DNA of 35,100 nucleotides from Flavobacteriales bacterium. GTDB lineage: Bacteria; Bacteroidota; Bacteroidia; Flavobacteriales_G; JALEGO01. The notes under the pieces were generated by a model. The model had not been told where the DNA came from, did no database searches, and worked only from the letters and a program-made list of their open reading frames with translations. The stretch is taken from the NCBI GenBank assembly GCA_020629755.1, contig JAHDCS010000025.1, positions 1 through 35,100 on the forward strand, read 5' to 3'. Position 1 is the first letter of the stretch; each line of letters starts with the position of its first letter. The position numbers were made by a program, and so were the translations under genes. Positions 14,835 through 26,041 of the stretch are shown here, in pieces.

Positions 14835-15011
14835 TTCCAAATTTTTAAATCCTCACACTTTTATAACTATATGAGTGAATTATTTTTAATTGGTATCCGT
14901 ATGAAAATTAATACTTATTTAAAAAAAATTATAACACTACCCCTTTAAACTGTATAAAGACCCAAAATTAAACCCTGCGTGTTTTTTAAGAAATAATCAA
15001 ATATTTTCATA

Positions 15012-16853
15012 ATTATCCCCCTCTTAAAACTTGAAAATATCACTAAAACCTATGGAAATAAGGTTTTATTTGAAGATCTTAATTTAACCATTAACAAAGG
15101 AGATAAAATTGGGTTAATTGCTAAAAATGGCAGTGGTAAAACTACCCTTTTAAAAGTGCTGGCTGGTCTTGAAACATCTGAATCTGAGAGTGCTAAAATT
15201 GAGTTTTCAAAACAAGCTACCATTGGGTTTTTACCTCAAGAACCTAAACTTAATGCTTCACACAGTATTTTAGAAGAAATATTCTCTTCTGATTATCCGC
15301 CTTTAAAAGCCATAAGTGATTACAATAAAGCCCTCTTAGAAAACAATGCAGACGCTACGCTAATTGCCTCTACAAAAATAGACGAATTAGACGCCTGGCA
15401 ATTAGAGGCAAAAGTCAAAGAAATTCTCTTTAAGTTTAACCTTACGGATTTAACCAAAAAAATTGGGGTGCTTTCGGGTGGCGAACAAAAACGCATCGCT
15501 TTTACTAAAATTTTAATCACTCAGCCAGATTTAATGATTTTAGACGAACCCACCAATCATTTAGATGTACACATGATTGAGTGGCTTGAAGATTATTTTA
15601 ACAATGAAAATAAAACCCTATTTGTGGTTACCCATGACCGTTATTTCATGGAACACGTCTGTAAAAAGATAATTGAATTAGATCATGGTGATCTCTTTTC
15701 TTATTCTGGTGGATATTTAGATTTTGTGCAAAAAAAAGAAGAACGCTTAAATAATATGCAAGTTGTACATCAAAAACTCAAACAACGTTATAAAAAAGAA
15801 TTGGATTGGGTAAGACGTCAACCAAAGGCTAGAGGCACAAAATCAAAAGACAGAACCGATCGGTTTTACACTATTAAAACGGCAGTTAAAAATTATAAAA
15901 CAGAAAATACTTTAAGTATTAACATTAAAGAGACCCGATTGGGTTCTAAAATAATTGAGCTGATAAACCTTCATAAAGCGTATGATAATAAACTCATTTT
16001 AAAAGGTTTTGATTATAAATTCAAGCGTTTTGATAGGTTGGGTATCGTGGGGGTAAACGGCGCTGGAAAATCTACTCTTTTAAAAATAATTACCCAAACC
16101 ATCCTCCCTGATAAAGGCAAAGTAATCCATGGTGAAACAATCAAAATAGGCTATTATAAACAGACCGGATTACAAGTAGATGGTTCGAAAAGAGTAATTG
16201 AATACATTAGAGATATCGCAGAGTATATCCCTTTAGAAAAGGGTCAAAAATTATGGGCCGAACAACTCTTAGAAAACTTTTTGTTTTCACGCGAACAGCA
16301 ACAGCAGCGCATTTCTACCTTAAGTGGGGGTGAAAGAAAGCGCTTGTATCTTTTAGGTATTTTAATGGATAACCCTAATTTTTTAATTTTAGATGAGCCC
16401 ACTAACGATCTAGATATTGTTACTTTAGGTATTTTAGAAAACTACCTTTCTAGTTTTAAAGGCTGTTTAATTATTGTGTCACATGACCGCTATTTTATGG
16501 ACAGACTGGTTGATCACTTGTTTGTTTTAGAAGGAGATGGCATCATTAAAGATTTCCCGGGTAATTATTCTGATTACACCACATCAAAAACAAATCCCCC
16601 TAAAAAATCGGCAGAGCAACCCTTATCCCCCCAAAAAAAATCTAACACGCAAAATTTTGAAAAACACAAGAAAATTAGAAGCCTTGAAAAGAGTCTAAAA
16701 AAGTTAGAAACGCAAAAAAAAGAGGTTGAAACACAAATGTTAGATCCTACATTACCCACTGGTGAATTGATGCAAAAATCAGAAGAACTCGATAAAATAA
16801 AGGCGCAGATTGAAGAAAAAGAAATGCTCTGGCTTGAACTCTCTGAAGAATAG
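15012..16853 (+). CDS. ABC-F family ATPase, Uup-like, with non-canonical start codon
   Basis: This soluble ABC-F protein has two ATPase domains. The first Walker A is in AKNGSGKTTLL, encoded from about 15123, with LSGGEQKR and LDEPTNHLD following. The second set is GVNGAGKSTLL, LSGGERKR and LDEPTNDLD. The linker is QVVHQKLKQRYKKELDWVRR, and the C-terminal end is a charged coiled coil, as in Uup. Such proteins act on ribosomes or on DNA branches. The N-terminal strand LLKLENITKTYG is encoded from about 15021, but the open frame begins after a TAA at 14994-14996 and contains no ATG, GTG or TTG before Walker A. The start must be ATT (15012), ATC (15015) or a neighbour. A GTG at 15156 would cut off Walker A and is rejected. 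Alignment length to relatives favours 15012 or 15015. Confidence 0.85.
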   Translation: MIPLLKLENITKTYGNKVLFEDLNLTINKGDKIGLIAKNGSGKTTLLKVLAGLETSESESAKIEFSKQATIGFLPQEPKLNASHSILEEIFSSDYPPLKAISDYNKALLENNADATLIASTKIDELDAWQLEAKVKEILFKFNLTDLTKKIGVLSGGEQKRIAFTKILITQPDLMILDEPTNHLDVHMIEWLEDYFNNENKTLFVVTHDRYFMEHVCKKIIELDHGDLFSYSGGYLDFVQKKEERLNNMQVVHQKLKQRYKKELDWVRRQPKARGTKSKDRTDRFYTIKTAVKNYKTENTLSINIKETRLGSKIIELINLHKAYDNKLILKGFDYKFKRFDRLGIVGVNGAGKSTLLKIITQTILPDKGKVIHGETIKIGYYKQTGLQVDGSKRVIEYIRDIAEYIPLEKGQKLWAEQLLENFLFSREQQQQRISTLSGGERKRLYLLGILMDNPNFLILDEPTNDLDIVTLGILENYLSSFKGCLIIVSHDRYFMDRLVDHLFVLEGDGIIKDFPGNYSDYTTSKTNPPKKSAEQPLSPQKKSNTQNFEKHKKIRSLEKSLKKLETQKKEVETQMLDPTLPTGELMQKSEELDKIKAQIEEKEMLWLELSEE

Positions 16854-24784: not shown

Positions 24785-26041
24785 ATGAACAAAAATTGGT
24801 GTAGTCTTTTTTTTATTTTTCTACCATTTATTGGGAGTTTTTCTCAAAACGTGCCAAAAAATTTATCTGATACTGACAAGCTCTTCGGGCTGTCACTAGT
24901 CTGGAAAGAAGCAGATAAAAATTTTGTGTTTTTTGATCAAGTAAAAGACTTAGATTGGGACAGCACTTATAAAGCTTATATCCCAAAAGTTTTAGCAACA
25001 AACTCTACCTATGCGTATTACAAAGAATTGCAACGTTTTTGTTCTTTACTTAATGATGGACATACCCGAGTAGTTGTACCATGGCAACTTCGAGAAGAAT
25101 TAGAGTTATACCCCCCAATAAAAACAGCACTAATCAATAATAAAGTAATCATTACAAAAGTGAATAGTGATGTGCTTAAAAAAGAAGGATTAAAAAGAGG
25201 ATTAGAAATCCAAGAAATTAACGGGATTGATGTTCATAAATACGCCAAAGAAAACATTGAGCCTTATGTTTTTTATTCAACTAGTCAAGATAAGAATGTT
25301 CAGGTTTATGATTACCATTTATTAGTAGGTGCTCAAAACAAATCGCTTACAATACGTTGTGATCAAAAAATATTTACTGTCTCCAGAACACTGAAAAGCC
25401 CTTTTAATCACAGCCCTATCTTTGATTTTAAAATCTTCAAAGACTCTGTCGCTTATTTAAAAATTACTCGTTTTTGGGGCGATTAATTTCAAGAAAAATT
25501 TGATAGTGTTTATGCACTGATTAAGCCCTTTAAAAAAATAATTCTTGATGTATCAAATAATAGTGGGGGGAATAGTGATCATGCTCATTATATTCTCTCT
25601 TATTTTGCTGAAATACCTTTTGAAGGTTCTCGGTGGAAATCCCCCATGTATATTCCAGCTTATGCCTCTTGGAATTATCCCAAGCAATGGCAAGACAATC
25701 AAGGAGAAGTCATTCAGCCTGTAGAAAAAACAAAACGTTTTTCTGGAGAAGTAATTGTTTTAATAAGTGAAAAAACATATTCTGCTGCTGAAGATTTTAC
25801 ATCCGCTTTTAAAAGTGCCAATTTAGGAATTCTTATTGGAAGACCTACTGCTGGAACAACCGGAAATCCTGTCGGGTTCGCTTTACCAGGCATGGGTGGA
25901 TTTCAAGTGTGTGCTAAAAAAGATTATCTATCAAATGGTGAAGAGTTTGTGGGTTATGGCATTAGGCCTGATGTTTTTATCCCTTACTCTTTAGATGAAA
26001 AATTACTAGTGAAAAAAGCGCTAGAGATATTCAAAAAATAA
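24785..26041 (+). pseudogene. S41 family peptidase, interrupted by an in-frame stop codon
   Basis: One reading frame runs from ATG at 24785 to TAA at 26039-26041 (about 418 codons) but holds a single TAA at 25484-25486, codon 234. Before it are a signal peptide (to FSQN), DGHTRVVVPW, and a PDZ-like EEGLKRG-type region with LEIQEINGIDV. After it the same frame continues with FQEKFDSVYALIK, ILDVSNNSGGNS and the catalytic-serine block ISEKTYSAAEDF, then GRPTAGTTGNP. These are the parts of C-terminal processing (tail-specific) proteases in the right order. A single base change could explain the stop. Either the gene is freshly broken, the stop is read through, or the base is a sequencing error. 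Confidence 0.88.

Follow-up and report, generated by a model that had tools for sequence, protein, structure and literature searches.

An ABC-F gene without any canonical start codon before its conserved N-terminus raises the question of where its translation begins, and whether it begins at all. The gene lies in a stretch of 35,100 nucleotides (hereafter the window) from a draft genome of 2.36 Mb in 92 contigs, which the named relatives of the encoded protein indicate to be that of a Bacteroidota bacterium. Its frame opens after the TAA at 14994–14996, continues as TCA AAT ATT TTC ATA ATT ATC CCC CTC TTA AAA CTT GAA and closes at TAG 16851–16853 on the forward strand. The in-frame codon scan detected no ATG, GTG or TTG between that TAA and GTG 15156, in agreement with the original prediction that just ATT, ATA and ATC precede this GTG (Table 1). 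The prediction also described an intact Walker A that a start at GTG 15156 would lose; AKNGSGKT, which we take to be Walker A, is present in the frame and is among the 47 codons that such a start would drop. We screened 309 long non-overlapping frames (431.9 kb; the window plus 20 stretches, ~18% of the genome) for coding-like codons 5' of each frame's first canonical start, a measure that misses many kinds of error and is blind to near-cognate starts soon trailed by a canonical codon, as in infC. The ABC-F gene ranks first, with a score of 18.6 over 44 codons, followed by one frame at 13.4 and the remainder at 7.1 or below. The lack of a canonical start in this gene exceeds chance.

Table 1. 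Features of the window discussed in the text, with positions counted from its first nucleotide.
Feature	Position	Strand	Basis or remark
GTG TTT TTT AAG AAA TAA, five-codon frame in the phase of ABC-F, shut before the gene	14979–14996	+	No sign of use
TAA, in-frame stop just 5' of the ABC-F start	14994–14996	+	
TATTTTCA, -7-like box, weak (consensus matched at 4 of 6 bases), spacing 5, putative +1 near 15014	15002–15009	+	
ATA ATT ATC, three consecutive near-cognate start codons (ATA 15009, ATT 15012, ATC 15015)	15009–15017	+	
ATC, proposed start codon (codon 1) of ABC-F	15015–15017	+	Alignment with the starts of 110 relatives; ATG in the same-genus genome
ABC-F gene, 612 codons and TAG; two ABC domains, linker, C-terminal domain	15015–16853	+	Pfam, NCBIfam
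Presumed Walker A (AKNGSGKT) of the first ABC domain	15120–15143	+	Translation and DNA
GTG at codon 48 of the frame read from ATC, the first canonical start in frame; 3' of Walker A	15156–15158	+	
S41 peptidase-like gene cut by in-frame TAA 25484–25486	24785–26041	+	Halves share one frame

Around the proposed start, AUG is absent from 14904 to 15051, and the sole upstream GTG in that interval, at 14979, is closed by the TAA. Adenines occupy -3, -4 and -6 relative to ATC 15015, which is unpaired in both predicted RNA folds; the RNA structure around the start is ordinary in these folds (z -0.80 and -1.42). Entry by frameshifting from a start in another frame was considered and rejected, as the last stops of the other two frames fall at 15010 and 14987 with no later start up to 15020.

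Alignment with 110 relatives, all Bacteroidota, places the putative ABC-F start at ATC 15015–15017, so that a non-AUG start is supported. These relatives comprise 39 loci from the order, 57 from a phylum sample and 14 named loci. The order set held 40 places including the window, every one of which was used, and the phylum set held 58 including the window (E <= 1e-165, 395 genomes), likewise all used; because 337 of these genomes gave no match at this threshold and three candidates were scored per genome, the phylum sample is weighted towards close relatives. From 80 named loci the 14 closest, all Bacteroidota, were taken (L032–L045); L046–L111 (Firmicutes, paralogues and others, including L047, a Bacteroidales gene with ATG) were left aside, and the scan of named genomes may omit the window's genome and very near ones. 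Taking as the start of each relative whichever canonical codon lay closest to the column, up to 15 nt away, we found the start at the same column with zero offset in 108 of the 110, the other two (L133 and L138) starting two codons on through a local gap. The codon is ATG in 80 relatives, GTG in 23 and TTG in 7. AUH occurs at this column in 0 of 110, so an infC-like conservation of AUH fails; with a canonical codon in 110 of 110, the ATC is confined to this genome among those compared, which excludes a conserved AUH signal. The original prediction had named relatives with an ATG at the same place, and reads revealing a base error, as evidence that would tell against it: ATG, GTG or TTG indeed stands there in every relative, which is half of that evidence. 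The genus consists of two genomes including the window's, and the ABC-F protein of its other member is 62–64% identical and starts with ATG (start region MQYLKLENITKTYG versus IPLLKLENITKTYG in the window). Residue 2 is proline (CCC) in the window only and asparagine in 98 of the 111 sequences. The genus mate's gene adjoins different genes, and synteny is uninformative.

ABC-F ATPases consist of ABC ATPase domains joined by an ABC_tran_Xtn linker on a single chain. The window protein has this architecture, with PF00005 (two stretches), PF12848 and PF16326 over the Pfam cut-offs. It passes the NCBIfam model for ribosomal protection-like ABC-F proteins (NF000355; 416.2 bits against a cut-off of 380), a model that is not specific, as the EttA of the same genome also passes with 393.1, and drug resistance does not follow. 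The EttA models were failed by the window protein (TIGR03719, 468.4 versus 806.75 bits; NF008775, 471.1 versus 599 bits), as was the Uup model NF050005 (398.1 versus 900 bits, 612 residues). The genome carries other ABC-F-like genes, among them a separate EttA gene that passes TIGR03719 (898.5) and NF008775 (889.9). The closest solved chains are EttA, followed by Uup, YheS and YbiT. The window protein shares its ABC domains, ABC_tran_Xtn linker and ABC_tran_CTD with the housekeeping factors EttA, Uup and YfmR; unlike EttA and Uup, it passes the broad NF000355 alone and falls below their own models. We infer that it is a YfmR/Uup member of the housekeeping ABC-F proteins, a type that in Bacillus subtilis is reported to be able to resolve Asp-Pro stalling in the absence of EF-P (PMC11381351). 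The tree places the ABC-F sequences of the window and of its genus mate (L003) not beside the other two genomes of the family but together with f8 loci, one Saprospiraceae and one unplaced Bacteroidetes record (support 54). Transfer or replacement of the ABC-F gene in the window's genus is possible.

The original prediction also drew attention to a TATTTTC stretch at 15002–15008 near the -7 consensus and, from it, to a possible leaderless non-AUG message. The -7 element of Flavobacterium johnsoniae is reported at -12 to -5 (PMC6847099), and our test for a leaderless message used the box TAHHTTTG ending 4–5 nt before the start. The stretch exists, but at 4 of 6 bases and spacing 5 it is within chance: 31% of shuffled versions of this AT-rich stretch contained an equally good box 3–6 nt from the start. 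By this shuffle test, a promoter immediately 5' of ABC-F is not above chance, and a further box at 14881–14888 (5 of 6) is uninformative, with an equal box in 93% of shuffles of the 180 nt. Some relatives, in contrast, are enriched in the box. Boxes of at least 5 of 6 at 3–6 nt are found in 21 of 110 relatives versus 3–11 in eleven control blocks, and a perfect box at 4–5 nt in 10 of the 111 sequences against 0.07 expected per position. Because these boxes exceed controls and expectation, the ABC-F message is probably leaderless, or nearly so, in some relatives, and the loci with a perfect box, predicted to be leaderless for this gene, span several families. A perfect TAnnTTTG precedes the ABC-F start by 4–5 nt in L035, L045, L120, L149, L202, L214, L222, L223, L225 and L226. 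Published surveys point to small shares of such messages in the phylum, with 3.7% of 5' UTRs under 10 nt in Bacteroides thetaiotaomicron (PMC7366714), 5.5% leaderless in Flavobacterium psychrophilum (PMC9723704) and 87% of leaders over 10 nt in F. johnsoniae (PMC6847099). The 21 relatives with the box geometry start with ATG in 19 cases and GTG in 2, while 28 of the remaining 89 are non-ATG (p = 0.056). For the ABC-F gene of the window, the leaderless reading appears weak.

The constraint on the N-terminal codons bears on where in the frame the protein begins. Across codons 3–47 (45 columns, six outgroup loci), 1 derived change falls on the window branch and 6 on that of its sister; the other 564 columns hold 70 and 52, respectively. 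The window-branch counts (1/45 versus 70/564) differ by Fisher's test at p = 0.049, a measure blind to a very recent loss of the start. The codons after ATC may still be under selection in the window lineage, for which this is weak and modest evidence. Codons 3–47 look conserved on the window branch, which puts the N-terminus upstream of GTG 15156. This GTG, the first canonical in-frame start and the one chosen by a mechanical ORF list, would yield a protein without the first Walker A; it would discard 47 codons whose 45 compared columns hold a single window-derived change, and in 110 of 110 relatives the upstream column is occupied by a canonical start codon. A start there was ruled out on conservation and is, in our judgement, extremely improbable. 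Initiation at ATT 15012 or ATA 15009, or from a leaderless or nearly leaderless message, is improbable to a lesser degree. Both codons are in frame, the -7-like box would set +1 near 15014, and in the genus mate a box matching 5 of 6 bases, TACCTTTA, stands six bases 5' of the ATG. With +1 at 15014, however, ATT 15012 and ATA 15009 would begin 5' of the message end, and the relatives fix the start at 15015. The box of the window is within chance under shuffling, relatives with its geometry are nearly all ATG, and leaderless initiation in Escherichia coli is reported to be much poorer from GUG, UUG and CUG, with GUG good in some other species (PMC9031893).

The two remaining alternatives question whether the ATC is real or still functional, and both touch on a second lesion in the window. 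The S41 peptidase-like gene is interrupted by an in-frame TAA, and its C-terminal part (25487–26041) is the frame that ranks second in the coding-potential screen, at 13.4. That part has no match in the genus mate; elsewhere it lies in open frames of 337–568 aa at 9 of 11 places and in shorter ones at 2 of 11. This may be either a broken gene or a consensus error. A consensus error in the ABC-F gene, with a canonical start in the organism and one wrong base (15017) in the assembly, is unlikely but deserves serious weight. Because the comparison rests on one sequence of the species, a single wrong base at 15017 would explain everything. The canonical codon at this column in all relatives, the C run that the ATC abuts, the one-codon lesion in the S41 gene 10.5 kb away within the same 35 kb and the lack of any other frame above 7.1 in the further 396.8 kb screened are in its favour. 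On the other side, residue 2 also departs from the family, so the neighbourhood of the start has diverged beyond one base, and disturbed frames are few in the sampled genome. Real pseudogenes are common; thus the TAA in the S41 gene need not be an error. A recent loss of the start, leaving a young pseudogene or a strain polymorphism with little or no protein, we regard as rather more doubtful. It would have a parallel in an E. coli isolate in which an ATG-to-ATA change of the rpoS start is reported to accompany a reduction of RpoS (PMC12864459); the window's genome also carries further ABC-F-like genes, EttA among them, and the S41 peptidase-like gene of the window looks broken as well. Against it, the 612 codons are free of stops, the domains are intact and the N-terminal codons are conserved at the p value given above; moreover, if infC with its AUH starts is taken as a guide, AUC would be a weak start rather than none.

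Near-cognate initiation was surveyed in infC at 20 loci of the order, one of them from the window's genome; a 21st genome (G037) had no locus. ATG, GTG and TTG are absent before the conserved block of infC in 17 of the 20 loci, and AUH is present there in 20 of 20. AUH initiation therefore appears well precedented in the order, where infC seems as a rule to use near-cognate starts. Exceptions are found in three genomes, that of the window, that of its genus mate and a third from the family, each with a TTG two codons before the AUH; the window genome's infC has its TTG two codons 5' of its ATT, plus an ATG further on. Since the infC genes of both the window's genome and its genus mate have this TTG, the precedent does not demonstrate AUH initiation in the genus. 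The comparison with infC made in the original prediction is thus apt for the order but meets one of its exceptions in the window's own infC. Two of the 17 loci, L170 (from the window's family) and L175, have ATC as their sole AUH codon ahead of the conserved infC block.

We therefore favour, with somewhat better than even confidence, an intact housekeeping ABC-F gene that is translated from AUC at 15015, a lineage-specific start. The fixed start column, the absence of a canonical start nearby, the intact frame and motifs and the infC precedent support this reading; AUH in none of the relatives, the TTG in infC of the window's genus and the small numbers of the N-terminal signal (1 versus 6) argue against it. 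The canonical start would have changed to ATC after the split from the genus mate. Initiator fMet-tRNA may initiate on AUC by imperfect third-base pairing, and IF3 may reject most such attempts, which would result in a low yield; the third base of the start codon is reported to be tolerated, with weak pairs excluded by IF3 (PMC10158994). The A at -3 and -6, the unpaired start region and the lack of a nearby AUG could help the ribosome choose the AUC, and A-3 and A-6 are described as favouring initiation in F. johnsoniae, where AUG is rare around the starts (PMC6847099). If real, the case would extend AUC starts beyond infC in a phylum that has no Shine-Dalgarno sequences and in which the acceptance of weak starts by ribosomes is poorly known. 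Gene callers restricted to ATG, GTG and TTG would shorten such a gene, here with the loss of Walker A.

Weak starts look recurrent in this ABC-F gene, mostly in one family, with ATC as the extreme. GTG or TTG starts the gene in 30 of the 110 relatives, of which 25 belong to family f7 (25 of 40 there); the window's own family is otherwise ATG (3/3). Loci with such starts include L114, L140, L142, L144, L145, L147, L148, L150, L152, L156, L157 and L159–L161. In the phylum sample the count is 26 of 57, or 26 of 46 among genomes with a counted EttA; the 11 without a counted EttA all have ATG. As controls, EttA and trpS were sought in the 57 phylum-sample genomes plus G000–G003 (61 in total). EttA (542 residues) was matched in 51 of 61, with 50 counted and G219 left out, and trpS in 50 of 61, with 49 counted and G310 left out; an NCBIfam check bore out both names. 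The start was ATG in 50 of 50 EttA and 49 of 49 trpS genes, largely from the same genomes, and the contrast of the ABC-F gene (26/57 non-ATG) with each control gives Fisher values below 1e-8 (kinship ignored). The comparison covers these two control genes, both probably of high expression, and they may be rich in ATG for that reason. GTG or TTG is found in 13 of 57 genus-level groups, or 14 with the ATC of the window, with record titles used to pool five groups. In a tree built from 189 residues, the start must have switched between ATG and non-ATG 14 times or more, with 45 of the 106 inner branches open. AUG starts are reported to be held generally by purifying selection (PMC5622118). In the literature searched, largely at surface level, we found no earlier report of weak starts in this ABC-F gene.

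The contrast between the weak starts of this ABC-F gene and the uniform ATG of EttA and trpS is suggestive of translational throttling of a translation factor. We tentatively propose, as a possibility still well short of probable, that the weak start is a selected, recurrent feature of the Bacteroidota ABC-F gene with AUC as its extreme. Such a start would limit the supply of a ribosome-binding ATPase and tie its synthesis to IF3 and initiation stringency, perhaps also to its own activity. Control by its own activity is conceivable because the P2 (CCC) of the window is unique among the 111 sequences and YfmR-type factors are reported to be able to resolve stalls at proline-containing motifs (PMC11381351).

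Known non-canonical starts resemble the proposed AUC in part. Like infC, the ABC-F gene belongs to the translation machinery and lacks AUG, GUG and UUG before a conserved N-terminus; unlike in infC, where AUH is widespread, its proposed AUH start is private to one genome, and the codon is canonical in 110 relatives. In Staphylococcus aureus, infC is reported to start at AUA, and ccpN and cvfC1 have non-canonical AUA and AUU starts with lower yield (PMC13009471). The ABC-F gene would share with ccpN and cvfC1 a non-canonical start codon, which in their case reduces yield; their starts, in contrast, are described as conserved and placed behind extended Shine-Dalgarno sequences (PMC13009471), and Bacteroidetes mRNAs are described as being without such sequences (PMC6847099). 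A further parallel is sigR of Streptomyces, which is reported to start at GTC, a non-canonical start that lowers translation through repression by IF3; it differs from the case of the ABC-F gene in codon and gene, in its experimental proof and in its conservation across Streptomyces (PMC5472188).
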